Assembly (NCBI GenBank): GCA_014323865.1
Contig: JACONG010000006.1
Coordinates: 1 to 64,000 of the forward strand
Length of the DNA: 64,000 bases
Direction of reading: 5' to 3'
Source: Rhodospirillales bacterium
GTDB lineage: Bacteria; Pseudomonadota; Alphaproteobacteria; SP197
The position numbers were made by a program, and so were the translations under genes. Below the pieces are notes generated by a model. The model was not told the origin of the DNA. It did no database searches and was given only the letters and a program-made list of their open reading frames with translations. Shown here in pieces: positions 18,983 through 29,307 of the stretch; within the stretch, counting starts at the first letter, position 1; the number at the start of each line of letters is the position of its first letter.

Positions 18983-19080
18983 GAAGGCTCTCCGGTCGAT
19001 GTTTTGACAATGGTGCGACCACACCGCCGAGGCAAGGGTTACGCTTGGCGTTCCCTTCGGAGGCACCTATAAGATGCGCC

Positions 19081-20109
19081 ATGAAAATCCTCTTTTTCGA
19101 CGATTCGTTCCTATACGACAGCTACACTCCGCGCCACGACCCCATGGGTGGACCGGAGAAGGGGTTGGTCTACCTTGCGGAGGCCCTGGCGCGCCGCGGG
19201 CAGGACGTTGTCGTGCGCAATCGCTGTGAGGCGCCGCGGGGTCTTCGCGGCGTGGCGTGGCGCCCGATCGACGACGGCGAGGAAGACGGTGCTGATCTCG
19301 TGGTTGCCTTGCGCGATCCGCGACTGCTCGATCGGGCCCCGGCATCGGGCGTTCGTGTTCTTTGGCTGGCCACGCCCGGTGCGCTTCTGACGCAGGGGGC
19401 GATGGCCGAATCCATGGGCCGTCACAGCGATTGCAAGCTGGTCTTCATGGGCGATTATCACAGGGCAACATGGCCGGAGGACGATGCCAGGGCTTCGATC
19501 ATTCAGCCCGGTGTCGCCCCGCCCTACATGGTGTCTGAGGGACCGGCCGGCTACTGGCCGCCGCGCGCCGTCGTCACGACCCATCCCAGGGTTGGCATGG
19601 AGCGGCTTCTCGATCTCTGGTGCCGCAGGATCGAGCCGATGATCTCCGGGGCGCAGCTTCACATCTTCTCGGGCCTTTTCGCGCGCGCCGCATCGAGCAA
19701 GAAGATCGACGCCGATGTCACCGCGATCTACCGCAAGGCTGAGGCGGCTGCGGACCAGGGTGTGATGATCCGCCGCCCGGTGCCTGATGCGGATATGACC
19801 GAGGAGTATCGCCACGCGCGTGTCCACATCTACCCGGCATCGCCGCGTGAGATTTATGCGGCCACCCTGGCGGAGTCACAGGCCTCGGGCTGCCCGGGCG
19901 TGACGTTCCGTGAGGGAGCGGCCCAGGAGCGAATCCGCGACAGCCAAACCGGGTTTCTCGCGCCGGACGACGAGGCCTTCGCCAACTGCTCGATCCTCTG
20001 CCTGAAGGAGGACATCGTGTATCGGGGCCGCTCGAAGGATGCCTGGGAGATGAAGCGCGACCGAAGCTGGGACGATGCCGCCGAAGAGTTCGAGGCGCTC
20101 GCGCGCTGA
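19081..20109 (+). CDS. glycosyltransferase-like protein, first gene of glycan cluster
   Basis: 342 residues. It begins MKILFFDDSFLYDSYTPRHD, which is followed by MGGPEKGLVYLAEALARRGQ, a nucleotide-sugar-like N-terminal Rossmann pattern. Later ARVHIYPASPREIYAATLAE and SQASGCPGVTF match the GT-B acceptor/donor EX7E-like region of family 4 transferases. No closer assignment is possible. It heads a run of five close genes on this strand ending in asnB-like. Confidence 0.7.
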   Translation: MKILFFDDSFLYDSYTPRHDPMGGPEKGLVYLAEALARRGQDVVVRNRCEAPRGLRGVAWRPIDDGEEDGADLVVALRDPRLLDRAPASGVRVLWLATPGALLTQGAMAESMGRHSDCKLVFMGDYHRATWPEDDARASIIQPGVAPPYMVSEGPAGYWPPRAVVTTHPRVGMERLLDLWCRRIEPMISGAQLHIFSGLFARAASSKKIDADVTAIYRKAEAAADQGVMIRRPVPDADMTEEYRHARVHIYPASPREIYAATLAESQASGCPGVTFREGAAQERIRDSQTGFLAPDDEAFANCSILCLKEDIVYRGRSKDAWEMKRDRSWDDAAEEFEALAR

Positions 20110-20121
20110 GATCGCCCGGCC

Positions 20122-21060
20122 ATGAAGCTGTTGTTCATCACATCGAACAGGCTGGGCGACGCCGTTCTGTCGACCGGTCTGCTGGGACATCTGAGCGAGA
20201 GCATTGATGTATCGACGACCGTCGCCTGCGGGCCGGTCGCATCGCGACTGTTCGAGCTCCTTCCGGGCATTGACCGCGTGATTCCCATCGCGAAACGGCG
20301 CCACGGGGGACACTGGCGCGACCTTTGGCGTCAGGTTGTCGGCACACGCTGGGATCTGGTCGTCGACCTCCGTGCCTCGCCGATGTCCTATGTGATCCGT
20401 GCGCGCGGTCGTCGCATCATGTTCAAGGCCGGAGCGGGACATCGGGTGGAGAGCCTGGCGGCGTGGTATGGCGTTCAACCGCCACCGGCACCGCGCATCT
20501 GGTCGTCCGCGGAGCATGTGGATGACGCGGCCGATCTCTTGCCCGGCGAGGAGCCGATCCTGGGCCTGGCGCCGACAGCCAACTGGCAGGGCAAGATCTG
20601 GCCGGCCGAACGCTTCGTCGCGCTTGCCGAAGGCCTGACCACTGGTGACGGTCCCCTGGCCGGTGCCCGTATCGCCGTGTTCGGCGGTCCCGGCGAGGAT
20701 GCTCTGGTCAGACCGGTCCTGGATGGGCTCGGTGACGATCGTGCCATCAATCTTGTGGGCGGCCGCCATCTCCTCACGGTCGCCGAATGTCTCCGACTCT
20801 GCCGCCTCGTGGTCTCCAACGACAGCGGCTTGATGCACCTCGCCGCGGCGTCCGGTGCGCCGACACTCGGTCTGTTCGGGCCGAGCCGGGTCGAGCATTA
20901 TGCGCCTTGGGGTTCGCACTCTGCGTCCGTGACGACTGAGGTGGCCTACGATGATCTGTTTGCACCGGACTACGACCGGCACACCACAGGTTCGCTGATG
21001 ACGACGCTGTCGGTCGACGCCGTCCTCAGCGTCGCGCGATCCCTGCTGGAGCGCACGTGA
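20122..21060 (+). CDS. glycosyltransferase family 9 (heptosyltransferase type)
   Basis: 312 residues of the ADP-heptose:LPS heptosyltransferase fold. LLFITSNRLGDAVLSTGLLG at the N-terminus, ILGLAPTANWQGKIWPAERF and VVSNDSGLMHLAAASGAPTL with GLFGPSRVEHYAPWG are family hallmarks. It likely adds a sugar to the LPS inner core at the cytoplasmic face of the inner membrane. Its stop overlaps the next start (GTGA). Confidence 0.85.
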   Translation: MKLLFITSNRLGDAVLSTGLLGHLSESIDVSTTVACGPVASRLFELLPGIDRVIPIAKRRHGGHWRDLWRQVVGTRWDLVVDLRASPMSYVIRARGRRIMFKAGAGHRVESLAAWYGVQPPPAPRIWSSAEHVDDAADLLPGEEPILGLAPTANWQGKIWPAERFVALAEGLTTGDGPLAGARIAVFGGPGEDALVRPVLDGLGDDRAINLVGGRHLLTVAECLRLCRLVVSNDSGLMHLAAASGAPTLGLFGPSRVEHYAPWGSHSASVTTEVAYDDLFAPDYDRHTTGSLMTTLSVDAVLSVARSLLERT

Positions 21061-21815
21061 GCGCGGTGCGGCTGAGTGCGGTGGTGGTGGCGCACAACGA
21101 GGAGGAGAACCTCGACGCCTGCCTCGCCACGCTTGCCTTCTGCGATGAGATCGTCGTGGTGCTCGACCGCTGTACCGATCGCTCTGCCGAGATCGCCCGT
21201 CGCCATACCGAGCGGATCATCGAAGGTGCCTGGGAGATCGAAGGGCTGCGACGCAACACGGGCCTTGATGCGGCGACCGGCGACTGGATCATCGAGCTGG
21301 ATGCGGACGAGCGCGTGACCCCCGCGCTCGCGGACGAGATCCGGGAAACAATCGCCGATGCGACAGGGCCGGCCCACTACCTGATTCCGTTCGACAACTA
21401 TGTCGGAACCCGTCGGGTTCGGTATGGCTGGGGGGCGTACTGGGGCGTATCGGCGGCAATCCGCCTCTTCACTCCGGGCGCAAAGCGTTGGGGCAGCGAA
21501 TGGGTCCATCCCAGCCTGGAGATCAAGGGCGAGCGCCGCCGGCTGACCGAACGCATCGACCACCTGGTCGATCGCGATATCTCCGACATGATCGCGCGGC
21601 TCGATCGCTATACGGCCTTACACGCCCGTGATCTCCGGGATTCCGGCGATATCGGTTCTCTCTGGCGCAATGTGCTTCGTGTCTTCGGTCGTTTCTGGAA
21701 GTGTTACATCGGTCGCTCCGGATGGCGCGAGGGTGGTTGGGGATTCCTGATCGCACTGTTTGCCGGTCTCTATCCGCTCCTGTCGCACCTGCGTGCCCGG
21801 TTGGAGGACGGCTGA
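21057..21815 (+). CDS. glycosyltransferase family 2 (WaaE/KdtX-like)
   Basis: 252 residues, GTG start. LSAVVVAHNEEENLDACLAT and VVLDRCTDRSAEIA form the GT-A nucleotide site, with IIELDADERVTPAL carrying a DxD-type motif near residue 82. These match the beta-1,4-glucosyltransferase WaaE/KdtX group of LPS core enzymes. It ends in a hydrophobic GGWGFLIALFAGLYPLLSHL segment suggesting membrane association. It overlaps both neighbours by 1-4 nt. Confidence 0.85.
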   Translation: MSAVRLSAVVVAHNEEENLDACLATLAFCDEIVVVLDRCTDRSAEIARRHTERIIEGAWEIEGLRRNTGLDAATGDWIIELDADERVTPALADEIRETIADATGPAHYLIPFDNYVGTRRVRYGWGAYWGVSAAIRLFTPGAKRWGSEWVHPSLEIKGERRRLTERIDHLVDRDISDMIARLDRYTALHARDLRDSGDIGSLWRNVLRVFGRFWKCYIGRSGWREGGWGFLIALFAGLYPLLSHLRARLEDG

Positions 21816-22837
21816 TGCGCGTCGTTCAGGCCATGGCGGGTGGGGAGGTCGGCGGCGCGGAAGCGTTTTTCGTCCGCTTGGTCACGGCCCTTGCCGAAAC
21901 GGACGTGGAGCAGGCCGCCATCATCCGTAGCCATCCCGACCGCGCCGAGGCGCTCGCCAGGGTAGGGATTGCCACCCGTCAGCTGCGGTTCGGCGGCAGG
22001 CTGGATATCCGCAGCCGGCTCGATTATCGGCGCGCATTGCGGGAGGCTGACCCCGACATCGTGATGACCTGGATGAAGCGCGCATCGGGCCTCTGCCCGT
22101 CGGGACGGTTCGTGCAGATCGGCCGCCTCGGCGGGTTCTACGATCTGAAGTACTATCGCCGCTGTGGCCACCTCGTGGGCAACACCCGGGGCATCGTCGA
22201 CCACATCACGGCGCAGGGCTGGCCCGCCAAACGTGCTCACATGATCTCGAACTTCGTCGACACGAGCTTTGCCGTGCCGATGGCCCGCGCCGAGCTCGAT
22301 ACGCCCGATGACGTGCCGCTGATGGTGGCGCTGGGCAGGCTGCATCCCAACAAGGCGTTCGATGTCCTGATTGAGGCCATGGTCGATGTCCCCGAGGCCT
22401 GGCTCTGGCTTGCCGGCAACGGGCCGCTCGATCTTCATCTCAAACACCACGCCGCCGACCGGGGCGTCGAGAATCGCATCCGGTTCCTGGGCTGGCGCGA
22501 CGACACCGCAGCACTTCTCGAAGCAGCCGACCTGCTTGTCTGTCCTTCGCGCCATGAACCTCTGGGCAACGTGATTCTTGAAGCCTGGGCACGGCGTGTA
22601 CCGGTTGTCGCGGCGGCAAGTCAGGGGCCTTCCGAGCTGATCATCGACGGGGACACCGGCCTGCTTGCCGATGTCGACGATGCCTATGGTCTCGCCAGGC
22701 GAATTCGCGACGCGCTTGCCGATCGCGAGGGCATGGCCGCGATGGCCGAGCGTGGCCTGGCGGCCTACGAGGCGCGGTTCAGCCAGACCGCAATCGTGGC
22801 CCAGTTCCGCGACCTCTTTGAGCAGGTGTTGCGCTGA
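21815..22837 (+). CDS. glycosyltransferase family 4
   Basis: 340 residues, GT-B fold. AGGEVGGAEAFFVRLVTAL at the N-terminus, LMVALGRLHPNKAFDVLIEA mid-protein, and CPSRHEPLGNVILEAWARRV contain the EX7E motif of retaining transferases. GPSELIIDGDTGLLADVDD follows. Starts in a TGATG overlap with the upstream GT2 and ends in TGATG with the asnB-like gene, so the cluster is one translational unit. Confidence 0.87.
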   Translation: MRVVQAMAGGEVGGAEAFFVRLVTALAETDVEQAAIIRSHPDRAEALARVGIATRQLRFGGRLDIRSRLDYRRALREADPDIVMTWMKRASGLCPSGRFVQIGRLGGFYDLKYYRRCGHLVGNTRGIVDHITAQGWPAKRAHMISNFVDTSFAVPMARAELDTPDDVPLMVALGRLHPNKAFDVLIEAMVDVPEAWLWLAGNGPLDLHLKHHAADRGVENRIRFLGWRDDTAALLEAADLLVCPSRHEPLGNVILEAWARRVPVVAAASQGPSELIIDGDTGLLADVDDAYGLARRIRDALADREGMAAMAERGLAAYEARFSQTAIVAQFRDLFEQVLR

Positions 22838-24600
22838 TGTGCGGTCTTGCCGGCGTGATGGCGCGGCCCGGCGCGGAGATCCCGGAATCCGTGCTGCAGG
22901 ACCTTGCCAGCGCCATCGCGCACCGTGGTCCCGACGGCGAGGGGCGCTACCGCAACGGGCCTCTTGCCATGGTGCAGACCAGGCTGGCGATTATTGATCT
23001 TGTGACGGGGGATCAGCCGCTCTTCGGACCCTCCGGCCAGGTCCTGGTCGCCAACGGCGAGATCTACAATCACATTGAGTGGCGTCGCGTTCTGAAAGAG
23101 GTGCCGTTTCAGACGGCGTCCGATTGCGAGGTCCCGCTCCACCTCCATGAACGCGAGGGCATGGCCTTCGCCAGGGGATTGCGGGGTATGTATGCGATCG
23201 CGCTCTACGAGCCCGGTCCCGAAACGCTCTATCTGGCGCGCGATCCGTTCGGCATCAAGCCGCTCTATGTGGCCGAGACGCCCCTCGGGTTTGCCTTTGC
23301 GTCAGAACCTCAGGCCCTGATCGCTGCGCGGCTTGTGACGCCCGAGGTTGACGAGGCAAAACGTGCCGAGCTCCTGCAGTGCCAGTTCACCACGGGACGC
23401 CGGACGATCTACCAGGGGATCGAACGATTGTTGCCCGGCGAGACGGTTGCGGTTCGTCACGGGCAAATTGTCGAACGTCAGCGGCGCGATGCCTTGCCCG
23501 AACTCGACACTGCATCGTGGGACGAAGACGATGCCCTTGAACGCTTGGACGCCGCGCTGATCGACAGCGTACGGGTGCACGAAAGATCCGACGTTCCCTA
23601 TGGGCTGTTCCTCTCGGGCGGCGTCGACAGCTCGGCGATCATCGCGGCGATGACGCGCATCGACGAGCACCCGGTGCGCGCCTACACGATCGGTTTCGAC
23701 GTGTCCGGGATGCGGGATGAACGCATGCACGCCGCCGCGGTCGCACGCGCTGCCCGCGCAGAGCATGTCGAGGTGAGCTTCGGGCGGGACGACTTCTGGC
23801 GTCTGCTGCCGCGCGTTGCCGAAGCCATGGACGACCCGGCGGCCGACTACGCCACCCTGCCAACCCTGCGGCTTGCGGAGGTCGTGCGCGAATCCCTGAA
23901 GGTCGTGTTGTCGGGCGAGGGGGGTGATGAACTCTTCGCGGGCTACGGACGTTATCGCCGGTACTTGCGTCATCCGCTCTTGGGAGGCGGCAGGTTGCGG
24001 CGGCGCGGGACGTTCGACCGCTTCGGCACCGTTGCCCGGTTGCCGTCGGACTGGCGCAGAGGGTTCGATGAGGCCGAGAACGATGCCGCGCGACCGGGAC
24101 GGTCGAAGCTGCAGGTCGCGCAGGCGAGCGAGGTCGCGGAATGGTTGCCGAACGATCTGCTCGCCAAGCTCGACCGTTGCCTGATGGCCCATGGCGTCGA
24201 GGGGCGCGTTCCCTTGCTTGATCCCCATGTCGCCGATGTCGGGTTTCGCCTCACCGACGACCTCAAGATTCGCAAGCGTCGGGGCAAGTACCTGCTCAGG
24301 CACTGGCTCGACCGCGAACTGCCGGAAGCCGATGCGTTTTCGGCGAAGCGAGGCTTCACGGTTCCGGTCGGCGCATGGATTGCCGAACGCGGATCGAAAC
24401 TCGGCCGTCTCGTCGCCCGCACGCCCGGCCTCGAGAACTGGGCCAATCCGCGCGGCGTGGAGGACGTGTTTTCGAAGGCTGCGGATCGCGCGACCGGGTT
24501 CGCGGCCTGGACGCTGCTCTTCTACGCCCTCTGGCACCGCCGGCATGTCGAAGGGTTGCCGTTCGAGGCGATGGATGTGGAGACGATTCTGAAGATCTGA
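22837..24600 (+). CDS. asnB: asparagine synthase (glutamine-hydrolysing) family protein
   Basis: 587 residues. Class II glutaminase with Cys2 (MCGLAGVMARPG) and ANGEIYNH, then the ATP-pyrophosphatase loop LFLSGGVDSSAI (residues about 256-267) and VLSGEGGDELFAGYGRY. Length and motifs fit AsnB. Being the last gene of a glycosyltransferase cluster suggests it may amidate a glycan or sugar acid rather than make free asparagine; that is inference. Stop is 7 nt from the stop of the convergent gene. Confidence 0.85.
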   Translation: MCGLAGVMARPGAEIPESVLQDLASAIAHRGPDGEGRYRNGPLAMVQTRLAIIDLVTGDQPLFGPSGQVLVANGEIYNHIEWRRVLKEVPFQTASDCEVPLHLHEREGMAFARGLRGMYAIALYEPGPETLYLARDPFGIKPLYVAETPLGFAFASEPQALIAARLVTPEVDEAKRAELLQCQFTTGRRTIYQGIERLLPGETVAVRHGQIVERQRRDALPELDTASWDEDDALERLDAALIDSVRVHERSDVPYGLFLSGGVDSSAIIAAMTRIDEHPVRAYTIGFDVSGMRDERMHAAAVARAARAEHVEVSFGRDDFWRLLPRVAEAMDDPAADYATLPTLRLAEVVRESLKVVLSGEGGDELFAGYGRYRRYLRHPLLGGGRLRRRGTFDRFGTVARLPSDWRRGFDEAENDAARPGRSKLQVAQASEVAEWLPNDLLAKLDRCLMAHGVEGRVPLLDPHVADVGFRLTDDLKIRKRRGKYLLRHWLDRELPEADAFSAKRGFTVPVGAWIAERGSKLGRLVARTPGLENWANPRGVEDVFSKAADRATGFAAWTLLFYALWHRRHVEGLPFEAMDVETILKI

Positions 24601-24611
24601 CGTCGCGTCAG
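24597..24611. terminator. short hairpin across two convergent stop codons
   Basis: CTGACG-TCG-CGTCAG spans the asnB-like stop and the end of the convergent gene. The stem is 6 bp with a 3-nt loop and no U-run; weak. Confidence 0.3.
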
Positions 24612-25417
24612 TTCAGCGCCGGCATGTCGATGACGTGGCCTTCCCGCGCCAGCGAGCTTGCGGACAGCTGCCGCTGCATCGCTTCTTCCCTGCGGAAGAG
24701 TTCGCTGTCGGAGGCCTCCGGCGGATGGTCTGTGATGACGACGTGACCGATCTCGGCGCGCTGCGCCAGTTCGATCGCAATCCGGTCGGCCTCCTTCATG
24801 TCATCGCACAGAAGGCTCAGGATCAAGAGATCGCACCCGAGCAGGAAGTCGATGAGGTGCGACAGATCCCCGGGTGGTCGAAGGGCGCATGCGTAGCCGA
24901 GCGAGCGATGGCCGCATTGCAGCCTGTAGGCCGTGCCCGGCAGCCCGCAGGTCACCGGAATGGAGACAACCTCAATACCGGGAACGAGGTCGAAGGACTG
25001 CCCGGCCTCGAAGTCGTTGAACGCGAGCTCAGCATTGAAGATATCGATCGGGACGGGAAACACGGGGTCGGTCATCAGACGGGTCAGAACCGCCTTGATG
25101 CTGCCTTCCTCGGGTTTGTGGCCGCACCAGAACGAGAAGCTGTTTTTCGGATGGAAGGCCGCAGCAAAGAAGGGCAGGCCGCAGATCCGGTTGAAGTTGG
25201 TGTGGCTGAAGAGCAGATCGCCCTGAACCGGGGAGCGGTCCATGAGGGCCTGACCCAGCACACGCAGACCGGTTCCGGCGTCGAATACGATAATCCGGTC
25301 GCCGCAGTCGATCTCGACACAGGGGGAATTGCCGCCGAACTCGGTTGTCTCGCCACCCGGCGAGGGAAGGCCGCCCCTGACACCCCAGAAAGTCACCGCT
25401 GAACGCTGATCTGCCAA
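24608..25417 (-). CDS. metallo-beta-lactamase-fold protein lacking the metal site
   Basis: 269 residues. VTFWGVRGGLPSPGGETTEF, then FGGNSPCVEIDCGDR and FDAGTGLRVLG, then GLPFFAAAFHPKN, match cyclic-nucleotide phosphodiesterase-like MBL proteins. The key SHTHWDHI motif reads SHTNFNRI, so two metal-binding His and the Asp are replaced. The later HDAQYT and GHST metal ligand segments also read LILSLLC and EADR. The rest of the fold is undisturbed, so it is probably a stable, catalytically dead domain with a binding or sensing role rather than a decaying gene. Confidence 0.8.
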   Translation of the reverse strand: MADQRSAVTFWGVRGGLPSPGGETTEFGGNSPCVEIDCGDRIIVFDAGTGLRVLGQALMDRSPVQGDLLFSHTNFNRICGLPFFAAAFHPKNSFSFWCGHKPEEGSIKAVLTRLMTDPVFPVPIDIFNAELAFNDFEAGQSFDLVPGIEVVSIPVTCGLPGTAYRLQCGHRSLGYACALRPPGDLSHLIDFLLGCDLLILSLLCDDMKEADRIAIELAQRAEIGHVVITDHPPEASDSELFRREEAMQRQLSASSLAREGHVIDMPALN

Positions 25418-25796: not shown

Positions 25797-27203
25797 TCAG
25801 ACGCTGTAGTACATCTGGTACTCGAGCGCGCTCGTCGTCGTCTCGGCGAGATGAAGATCCTGCCGCTTGATGTGCAGATAGGCTTCGATCATGTCCTCGG
25901 TGAAGACGCCGCCCTTGAGCAGGAATTCGTGGTCCTTCGCCACGGCGCGCACGGCCTCACGCAGGCTGCGGCAGACCGTCGGCAGATCGACGATCTCGTC
26001 CTTGGGCATATCGTAAAGGTTGCGCTCGAGCGCCTCGCCAGGATTGATCTTGTTCTCGATACCGTCGAGACCGGCCATCAGCATGGCTGAGAATGCCAGG
26101 TAGGGGTTGGCCGATGCGTCCGGGAAGCGGACCTCGACACGCTTTGCATTCGGGCTCTCAGCGTGCGGAATGCGGCACGAAGCCGAGCGATTGCGGGAAG
26201 CATAGGCGAGGAAGACCGGCGCCTCGTAGCCCGGAACCAGGCGCTTGTAGCTGTTGGTCGTCGGGTTGGTGAAGGCGTTCAGCGCACGGCCGTGCTTGAT
26301 GATGCCACCGATGTAGTAGAGCGCCTCCTGCGACAGTCCCTGGTATTTGTCGCCGGCGAAAACGGGCTTGCCGTCCTTCCAGATCGACTGATGGCAATGC
26401 ATGCCCGAGCCGTTGTCGTGCATGACCGGCTTGGGCATGAAGGTCGCCGTCTTGTTCCAAGCGTCGGCCACGTTATGCACGACATACTTGTACTTTTGAA
26501 CGTTGTCGGCGCAGTTCACAAGCGTGTCGAATTGTATGCCGAGCTCATGCTGGCTGGGCGCAACCTCGTGATGATGCTTCTCTACGCTGACGCCCATGCG
26601 AATCAGGCTAAGCACCATATCGCTGCGCATGTCCTGATGCTGATCGACTGGCGGCACCGGGAAGTAGCCACCCTTGGGACTTGGGCGATGACCCCGGTTT
26701 CCTTCGGGAAAGTCCTCGCCGGATTTGAAAGGATCTTCCCGAGAGTCAGTGAAGAAGTATGTCGAGTTCGGCATGACATCGAATCGCACGCTCTCGAAGA
26801 CGAAGAACTCCGGCTCCGGGCCGAAGTTTGCTGTGTCGCCGATGCCGGTCGATTGCAGGTGTTTCTCGGCGCGCCGTGCGACACCGCGGGGATCGCGATC
26901 GTAACGCTCCCCTGTCGTGGGCTCGTGCACGTCACAGACGATGACCAGCAAATTCTTGGAGAAGGGATCCTCCACGCAAGTTTCGAGCTGCGGCTTGAGC
27001 TGCATGTCGGACTCGTTGATGTCCTTCCAGCCGGTGATCGACGAGCCATCGAACAGCAGGCCTTCGGTAAGGAAGTCCTCGGTGATGGTATCCTTGTGAT
27101 GGGACAGATGCTGCCACTTGCCCTTCGGATCGGTGAAACGGAAATCGACGAAATCAATGTTGTCGCGCTCAAGGCGCGCGATCACCTCTGCTGCGGTAGT
27201 CAT
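25797..27203 (-). CDS. glnA: type I glutamine synthetase
   Basis: 468 residues; forms glutamine from glutamate, ammonia and ATP. DFRFTDPKGKWQHLSHH, the EPEFFVFE metal site, KHHHEVAPSQHELG, the ATP-binding KPVMHDNGSGMHCHQS and NRSASCRIP are present. The adenylylation tyrosine is in NLYDMP, indicating GlnE control. The start at 27203 follows GAGGAGACGATC. glnB, usually upstream in alphaproteobacteria, is not here. Confidence 0.97.
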   Translation of the reverse strand: MTTAAEVIARLERDNIDFVDFRFTDPKGKWQHLSHHKDTITEDFLTEGLLFDGSSITGWKDINESDMQLKPQLETCVEDPFSKNLLVIVCDVHEPTTGERYDRDPRGVARRAEKHLQSTGIGDTANFGPEPEFFVFESVRFDVMPNSTYFFTDSREDPFKSGEDFPEGNRGHRPSPKGGYFPVPPVDQHQDMRSDMVLSLIRMGVSVEKHHHEVAPSQHELGIQFDTLVNCADNVQKYKYVVHNVADAWNKTATFMPKPVMHDNGSGMHCHQSIWKDGKPVFAGDKYQGLSQEALYYIGGIIKHGRALNAFTNPTTNSYKRLVPGYEAPVFLAYASRNRSASCRIPHAESPNAKRVEVRFPDASANPYLAFSAMLMAGLDGIENKINPGEALERNLYDMPKDEIVDLPTVCRSLREAVRAVAKDHEFLLKGGVFTEDMIEAYLHIKRQDLHLAETTTSALEYQMYYSV

Positions 27204-27370
27204 GATCGTCTCCTCTGTCCGCATAATCCCAGGACCCGACCGATACAGCCAGCTGAGCATTCACGATATCAACTTGGCAGTCTATCAGACAATTCGAAGA
27301 AAACCTAGTGCAGAGTGAACGATTTCACGAAATCGTCATAACATCACGTGCCATGGCTGTGTGAACCGAA

Positions 27371-27892
27371 TCAGGCGGTTAGCGCCGCGACCACCTCATC
27401 GAACACGGCATCAGCGCGCTCATGCATCTCGGCCTCCGTCAGGGGCTGGATCGGATGCTTCACATAGATGGCGCCCGCGTTGAAACCATGGATTTCACGC
27501 CATGCCTTGACCCCGGACTCGAACTCCTCCGAGAACAGGGCGACGGCGGGAAGGCCCTTCCGATCAATCTCCAGCATGTCCTGCAGACTGCACGACGTAC
27601 AAGAGCCTCAATCGGCCAGCGCCTCGACGACGACGTCGCAGCGTTCGGTGATCTCAGCCGTAACGGCGTCGGAGGCCTTCTTGGCGAAGGTCTCCTTGGC
27701 GAACCGCTCGACCTTGATGCCGAGTTCACCAAAGCGCGCCTCAAGCCGGTCAAGCAGCAGATCGCCCTGCCGCTTGGTGATGTCGAGCAATCCGACGGTC
27801 AGACCGTCGAGCGACGCCGGTGGCGCCTTGCGCTCGCGTATCCCGCCCGACCGTTCCGAGGTCGGATCGAGCAGGGTCGTGCTGTGCGTCAT
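27371..27892 (-). CDS. UGSC-family selenoprotein with in-frame UGA (Sec95)
   Basis: Read through a TGA at 27610-27608, the frame encodes 173 residues: 94 before and 78 after the stop. The junction reads CDVVVEALAD-U-GSCTSCSLQ, the defining motif of the UGSC (seleno)protein family, whose other members have Cys or Sec at that position. Upstream ASLDGLTVGLLDI and downstream IDRKGLPAVALFSEEF and VKHPIQPL are family-like, and codon use and GC content are continuous across the TGA. A SECIS-like hairpin follows. The start overlaps the upstream gene's stop (ATGA), so the two are translationally coupled. Family function is unknown; a redox role via U-G-S-C-T-S-C is inference. A simple nonsense mutation is the alternative, but it would have to fall exactly at the conserved Sec/Cys position. 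Confidence 0.88.
27578..27596 (-). promoter_or_regulatory. candidate bacterial SECIS hairpin
   Basis: The mRNA segment GUCGUGCA-GUC-UGCAGGAC forms an 8-bp stem with one G-G mismatch and a GUC apical loop. The loop starts 19 nt after the UGA. From memory, E. coli fdhF has UGCA-GGUC-UGCA, with the loop 18 nt after its UGA, so both the core and the spacing match what SelB recognises. The stem lies inside the coding sequence, as bacterial SECIS elements do. Confidence 0.7.
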
Positions 27893-29307
27893 GGCACAAT
27901 CTCCCTCGTTATGGGTTGCGACCCGCGCGGACCGCTGGCCCAGCCATGGATGATAGTGGAGAATAGCCCGGCGTTGCTACCGGTTCGAACCAACTGGAGG
28001 TCGCCGGGGCCGAATTTCGGAATCAGCGTGCCGTCCGTCGAACGCACCGTGGCACCGGCTTCGACATCGGCTTCGTTGCGCCCTGTGCGATCCATCAGAG
28101 CGTAGAAGATGCGGGCGCGATCCCACCCGGCCGCGCGGTAGACCGACCAGTACTCGCCCGACAGCACCAGCATGGCACCCTGGCCACCACCGGCATCCTG
28201 CGGATGGCCGAAGGCATTGAGTGTCATGGCGATGTTGTCGGTCAGCGCGTCCGGTTCGCGGGCGTTTTCCATGTTGTGGATGCTGGTGCCGCAGAATCCG
28301 AACACGGTCACGGCGGACTTGCCCGGCTCGATGCCGCGTGACTGTGCCAGGGACTGCCAGGCGTCATCCGATTCATCCTCAGCGAAACACAGGCCGAACT
28401 TGCCTGGGTGGCCGAAGGTGGAGCGGTCCGTGCCGCCAGGCATGGCGCCGCCGAGATTGATCACGAGAAGCTGGAGGGCTCGCGCGATCGTGGCGTTCGC
28501 ACGGTTGCCGTGGCCCAGGGCATTGTGGCCGGTGTTCATGCCGATGCGCTTGGCCACAGGGCCGTTCACGACCACGCAGACACCGGCGCCCATCGTGGTC
28601 GACATCAGGCCTTGCCAGGCAAAATCCGGATCCATCGCGGCATCGAGCGCGGCCAACACCACGGGGAGGTGCTCGGGTCGGCATCCGGCCATCACGGCAT
28701 TGATGGCAGCTTTCTCGACTGTGCAGGTCGCACCCGAGGGCGGAATGATACCCAGAACCTCATCGGGCTTGTGGCCTGTGCCGTCGAGCATGCGCAAAAC
28801 GCGGGCCGGTGTCGGTGTCACGACCGGAAGGCCGTCGGTCCAGCCCTGGTCAAAGGCGTACTCCATCGGATCGTCGGGGAAGTCGACGATGACCTTGCAC
28901 GCGCTGAGTCCGGTGTCGCCGAACCGGGCCTGTAGTTCCTCGGCCATGCCGGAGGCGACCGACAGCGATCCGCAGCCGGGCCGTTCCTCGGGTAAGTCGA
29001 TGCCGAGATCGTTGACGCCGGTCAGGTTCTGCCATTCGCCGCGATGCCAGCCGATGACCCTACCCGTCTCGCGGCCGCCCTCACGTCGTATCAGCGTCGG
29101 CACGATGTCGGTTTCAAGCGCGAACGAGGCCTGGAGATCACGATCGTCGATCACGGCAAGCCCGCGCGGAAACTCCGGATTGTCCTGGGAGTAGATCGCC
29201 TTGAGATCGCCCAGCCGCTTCAGTTCGGCCGCCACCGGCGCGATGAGCTGACAGGTCGGACAATCCTCCTTGAGGACAAGTGCGAGGCCGTCTGCGGGCA
29301 GGTCCAT
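27889..29307 (-). CDS. thioredoxin-fold protein, UGSC partner
   Basis: 472 residues. The N-terminal about 90 residues form a thioredoxin-like domain with a CPTC motif (VLKEDCPTCQLIAPVAAEL). A long second domain follows, with FDQGWTDGLPVVTPTPARV, IIPPSGATCTVEKAAINAVM and MNTGHNALGHGNRANATI, then AVTVFGFCGTSIHN. The second domain is of unknown function; homologues occur next to UGSC proteins as I recall. The stop overlaps the UGSC start (ATGA), implying a two-protein system. CPTC could reduce the selenenylsulfide of the UGSC protein; that is inference. Confidence 0.7.
   Translation of the reverse strand: MDLPADGLALVLKEDCPTCQLIAPVAAELKRLGDLKAIYSQDNPEFPRGLAVIDDRDLQASFALETDIVPTLIRREGGRETGRVIGWHRGEWQNLTGVNDLGIDLPEERPGCGSLSVASGMAEELQARFGDTGLSACKVIVDFPDDPMEYAFDQGWTDGLPVVTPTPARVLRMLDGTGHKPDEVLGIIPPSGATCTVEKAAINAVMAGCRPEHLPVVLAALDAAMDPDFAWQGLMSTTMGAGVCVVVNGPVAKRIGMNTGHNALGHGNRANATIARALQLLVINLGGAMPGGTDRSTFGHPGKFGLCFAEDESDDAWQSLAQSRGIEPGKSAVTVFGFCGTSIHNMENAREPDALTDNIAMTLNAFGHPQDAGGGQGAMLVLSGEYWSVYRAAGWDRARIFYALMDRTGRNEADVEAGATVRSTDGTLIPKFGPGDLQLVRTGSNAGLFSTIIHGWASGPRGSQPITREIVP

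Follow-up and report, generated by a model that had tools for sequence, protein, structure and literature searches.

What is it that selection preserves when a metallo-beta-lactamase (MBL) fold has lost most of its metal ligands? The question is raised by a single gene in the stretch of 64,000 nucleotides analysed here (the window), for which a sequence-only reading had proposed that a catalytically dead MBL domain is maintained by selection, perhaps as a ligand sensor next to a glycan cluster. The clean 269-codon frame on which this proposal was built was recovered in our study, on the minus strand, which had not been named (Table 1). A GTG or TTG codon is found near the same start place in seven of the eight core orthologues, with starts picked by script. 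The replacement of HTHWDHI by HTNFNRI and the intact fold motifs WGVRGG and FDAGTG were likewise confirmed in the sequence. The length had been described as intact too, which holds for the 269 open codons but not entirely for the protein, as the GHST loop is deleted.

Table 1. Position and strand of the features in the window, with the evidence for each
Feature	Position	Strand	Basis
Glycan cluster	19045..22837	+	neighbourhood searches
GT4-like glycosyltransferase gene	19045-20109	+	
GT9 gene	20122-21060	+	
GT2 gene	21057-21815	+	
GT4 gene	21701-22837	+	
AsnB-type asparagine synthase/amidotransferase gene, tail-to-tail neighbour, 7 bases apart	22837..24600	+	neighbourhood searches
Degenerate gene, predicted MBL fold, 269 aa, TTG start	24608..25417	-	frame, AlphaFold2 model, structural matches
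N-terminal half, residues 8-135, strongest constraint in dead lineage	25013..25396	-	selection analyses
Motif I FDAGTG, residues 45-50, intact	25268..25285	-	sequence, ligand mapping
Former motif II HxHxDH, residues 72-77, now H-T-N-F-N-R	25187..25204	-	sequence and ligand mapping
Former motif III His, now C157 (C/S/G in core orthologues)	24947..24949	-	ligand mapping
Former motif IV bridging Asp, now A178	24884..24886	-	ligand mapping
Deleted GHST loop (approximate site), counterpart of RNase Z proton-donor His	24782..24808	-	alignments; motif role from PMC3161902
Former motif V, D230 for ligand His, then invariant H231	24725..24730	-	ligand mapping

Ligand loss and the predicted fold

The seven canonical ligands were fixed by aligning a profile of nine intact relatives to RNase Z sequences from the PDB. 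All of them had been taken as replaced; six indeed are, while H72, the first His of HxHxDH (H1), is kept. In motif II the second His (H2), the Asp and the last His (H4) became N74, N76 and R77, respectively, and the His of motif III, the Asp of motif IV and the His of motif V are substituted as given in Table 1. The deleted loop aligns with the HST motif of RNase Z, the His of which is described as the proton donor (PMC3161902). The second His of FHHDP was also considered as the motif V ligand and rejected, as it is the first His that lines up with the ligand in RNase Z sequences. H231 is conserved in all 23 degenerate sequences and in all 71 others (among them the partly degenerate L047), so its conservation is no evidence of metal binding.

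None of the Pfam and NCBIfam models matched the window protein at E ≤ 1, and a sequence search of the PDB gave a single weak match (E 0.31). The AlphaFold2 model, computed from an alignment of ten orthologues, reached a mean pLDDT of 84.7 and a pTM of 0.86; its first Foldseek match was YhfI (6kns), and its top structural match by VIA-align was RNase Z (4gcw; Z 22.5, rmsd 2.9 over 239 residues). From the model and these structural matches an alpha-beta-beta-alpha MBL fold of the RNase Z/YhfI type is predicted with fair confidence, although it was unseen by the sequence libraries searched. The superfamily ligand set of HxHxDH and motifs III-V is, at six of its seven positions, gone. Even the most eroded clade, with all seven ligands lost, still models as an RNase Z fold (pLDDT 86.3; Z 25.4 over 230 residues).

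The likeness to RNase Z/ELAC proteins is one of structure, and the intact relatives align to their motifs II-V and HST motif as well. The dead protein, in contrast, is without that ligand set and HST loop, and even the intact relatives stay far under the equivalog cut-offs: with the RNase Z equivalog of NCBIfam, whose cut-off is 292.95 bits, the intact paralogue scored 60.7 and the window protein gave no match at E ≤ 1.

Conservation and selection in relatives

Matches at E ≤ 1e-3 were found in 36 of 61 genomes (the source genome and its relatives). In the order, which is one family with 16 genomes examined, every genome has exactly one degenerate copy, its match free of stop codons, and at least one intact paralogue; of the 40 matches reaching E ≤ 1e-30, 16 are degenerate and 24 intact. 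A singleton loss, with close relatives retaining HxHxDH, is thereby ruled out. The motif II substitutions are shared within the core group, all eight core orthologues reading HTN(F/V)NR; two further copies have TTRFNH, one HSQFDH and one HTQFDR, and the four degenerate copies of the window's own genus carry RPTVVR and have lost 7/7 ligands. Eight orthologues have named records, all of them metagenome-assembled genomes; Alphaproteobacteria is the label of seven (three of these being Rhodospirillaceae), and one is assigned only to Proteobacteria.

Across 94 sequences the ligand states are bimodal, 70 keeping 7/7, 23 degenerate ones lacking between 3 and 7, and a single cyanobacterial sequence lacking 2; the count leaves out L054 and L056 (partial), L062 and L063 (repeats of L012 and L014), 20 loci repeating included sequences, and L141-L168, which were unread for motifs. 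H2 of HxHxDH and the motif V His are both replaced in each of the 23. Seven of the degenerate sequences form a second clade (SxxRFDH), found in another alphaproteobacterial family, which retains the Asp and H4 of motif II. Among the matches listed from a class sample of 385 genomes, this clade stands out in three, all of that one family, with scores of 553.6, 511.7 and 438.6 bits and the next match at 361.9. A single origin of the two degenerate clades is neither favoured nor rejected by the trees (p-AU 0.496); with the eight motif columns masked, a branch of support 0 separated the 23 degenerate sequences from the others (L047 counted among the latter). A recent duplication within the family is unsupported, the dead clade not being nested in the family's intact paralogues.

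It is conceivable that the protein is a re-purposed enzyme with another site, holding one metal or none. The eight core orthologues all share H72, R77, D230 and H231, and L012 retains H1, the Asp, H4 and the bridging Asp, so that some degenerate members may still bind metal; the second clade, as said, keeps two ligands. Against this stand the uniform replacement of H2 and the motif V His, a retained set that varies by group and the absence of the proton-donor loop from the core clade, and we regard such a re-purposing as quite unlikely.

Purifying selection was evident in the degenerate lineage. NG86 estimates of dN/dS were between 0.065 and 0.272 in 17 of 17 degenerate pairs, to be read with dS > 1 in many pairs and with YN00 giving no result for 10 of 19 pairs. 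A pseudogene, for which dN/dS near 1 or a broken frame would be expected, is ruled out by these values. When the alignments were split at residue 135, dN/dS of the N-terminal half was below that of the C-terminal half in all seven degenerate pairs (0.013-0.157 vs 0.079-0.373), six of which share no sequence once L015-L021 is left out; among intact paralogues the N-terminal half was lower in three of eight pairs. Counts of invariant columns across eight matched genomes gave the same picture, with 82/127 N-terminal and 28/129 C-terminal columns in the dead copies and 79/127 and 65/129 in the intact ones. The N/C permutation of columns, treated as independent, yielded p 5e-5, and 11 of 256 circular shifts reached the observed difference. 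Constraint in the dead lineage has shifted to the N-terminal half, and no such shift is seen in the intact paralogues of the same genomes. That a long antisense frame (24635-25402, plus strand) imposes the constraint is disfavoured, since the two halves differ little in dS for L006/L007 (1.34 and 1.43).

The sequence-only reading was therefore right that selection keeps a catalytically dead domain of predicted MBL fold, given dN/dS far below 1 and a degenerate copy in every genome of the order, and we consider the window protein very probably a selected pseudoenzyme. Were it instead a redundant paralogue under relaxed decay and heading for loss, the loose C-terminal half and the several forms of ligand erosion would be accounted for, but neither the low dN/dS in every pair, down to 0.013 in the N-terminal half, nor the lack of stop codons in the matches of all 16 genomes would, which leaves this course highly improbable.

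Neighbourhood of the gene

The asnB gene forms the end of the glycosyltransferase cluster, and the degenerate gene lies tail-to-tail with it. A cluster asnB is present in 10 of the 16 genomes of the order and is convergent with the dead gene in all 10, the spacing being within about 70 bases in eight, about 820 bases in one and about 2 kb in one; three of the seven second-clade sequences also adjoin asnB. No intact MBL gene was seen beside asnB among the matches listed. The six remaining genomes keep the dead gene without a cluster asnB, five of them having no match at E ≤ 1e-40 and one a 39% partial match only. The suggested link to the glycan cluster thus stands as a conserved position and is weakened as a functional one. 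The dead protein might scaffold or regulate the neighbouring glycan (LPS-core-like) machinery, chiefly AsnB, which would explain the recurrent tail-to-tail arrangement, but its gene is convergent to the cluster and persists in the genomes devoid of asnB; its function therefore does not depend on asnB, of which it is no accessory, and we hold the glycan role to be improbable. The gene is most likely regulatory.

Other neighbours of the dead gene were recorded. Just upstream of it, a glutamine synthetase gene (25797-27260, minus strand) looks like a local insertion, since no homologue at E ≤ 1e-15 occurred in the 25 neighbourhood loci searched. Further upstream on the minus strand are genes for a 94-aa UGSC-family protein (27608-27892) and for a 472-aa protein without Pfam match (27889-29307), both of which are near the dead gene in many relatives. 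Several members of the second clade have a glutathione S-transferase gene ahead of the MBL gene (L169 2477-4011; L040, L044).

Possible origin and role

The intact paralogues carry [T/S]HxHxDH and match PF12706. In PMC9293780 the same signature and PF12706 are those of the atypical class-II phosphodiesterases (PDEs; Rv1339, YhfI, CpdA). In the source genome the intact paralogue, at C16:503599-504417, has a methyltransferase gene after it and then a class III cyclase gene, and of 19 intact-copy neighbourhoods 13 have a methyltransferase directly after and eight a cyclase within 3 kb. Taken with these neighbours, the signature suggests cyclic nucleotides as substrates of the intact family. The row of intact MBL, Methyltransf_24 protein and class III cyclase genes of the source genome (L065 9602-12731, contig C16) recurs in other families and may be a cyclic-nucleotide module. 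The window protein resembles the atypical class-II PDEs in its predicted fold, as its first Foldseek match indicates, and differs from them in lacking the signature (SHTNFNR), which its intact paralogue in the same genome has, as well as any Pfam match and the di-metal ligands.

The reading that we prefer, with a probability of roughly 0.4, is that the protein is a metal-free pseudo-hydrolase derived from PDE-like MBLs, which would act by binding an anionic ligand, a partner or both. Its ancestor would belong to an alphaproteobacterial MBL family resembling the atypical class-II cyclic-nucleotide PDEs. Early loss of H2 in motif II and of the motif V His would have left the catalytic metal pair no longer held, and the other ligands would then have eroded along differing routes. 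Arg in the former zinc pocket may bind a nucleotide- or phosphate-type anion without cleaving it, and the conserved N-terminal surface may pass the signal to a partner. This particular mechanism, of an Arg pocket and signalling through the N-terminal half, we put forward tentatively. Arg at a former motif II His (H1, H2 or H4) occurs in 22 of 23 degenerate sequences and in 1 of 71 others (L047 among the 71), a pattern compatible with an anion site having replaced the zinc; the count is to be read with the fact that His to Arg is a single-transition codon change and that the independent events are few. That pocket residues vary by group (HTNFNR, RPTVVR, TTRFNH) argues against one conserved ligand. 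The ligand sensor proposed earlier from the sequence is possible. The boldest version, a bacterial class of metal-free receptors derived from cyclic-nucleotide PDE-type MBLs, in which Arg stands in for zinc, the old substrate or another phosphorylated ligand is reported intact and the N-terminal half signals, is in our estimation unlikely.

The main rival is a dead subunit which would pair with an active MBL paralogue and regulate it, by analogy with CPSF100-CPSF73 and INTS9-INTS11. CPSF100, INTS9 and the N-terminal half of long tRNase Z likewise keep the MBL fold without motif II ligands (PMC4819959, PMC7980224 and PMC3161902), and the same combination is predicted here from the model. Those proteins are, however, eukaryotic and multi-domain or fused, while the window protein is bacterial, single-domain and stand-alone; its 269-aa chain aligned with RNase Z from its residue 6 to 269 and has no Pfam domain, leaving no beta-CASP domain. 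Besides the CPSF100 and INTS9 precedents, pairing would agree with at least one intact paralogue in each of the 16 genomes of the order, with the relative YhfI being a homodimer (as stated in PMC9293780) and with constraint centred on one half, as a contact surface might be. On the other hand, it is common across the class for a genome to have intact-type relatives but no dead copy among the matches listed, so the co-occurrence of dead and intact copies says little, and the two copies of the source genome are on separate contigs and about 30-35% identical. Pairing thus appears rather unlikely, and we favour the metal-free binding protein.

The MBL pseudoenzymes in the literature consulted are eukaryotic RNA-processing subunits, and no bacterial stand-alone one of such kind was found in the open-licence literature searched; the lineage described here is stand-alone and bacterial. 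Ligand loss within it is graded, from 3 to 7, and intact paralogues in the same genomes provide internal controls, so that the lineage lends itself to asking how a metallohydrolase turns into a non-catalytic protein and which portion of the fold retains a use. Should a nucleotide still bind in the pocket, the protein would represent an unrecognised type of receptor. Outside the two degenerate clades, the cyanobacterial relative L047 (2568-3422) has Arg at H4 and the motif III His, possibly an independent start of the same decay.
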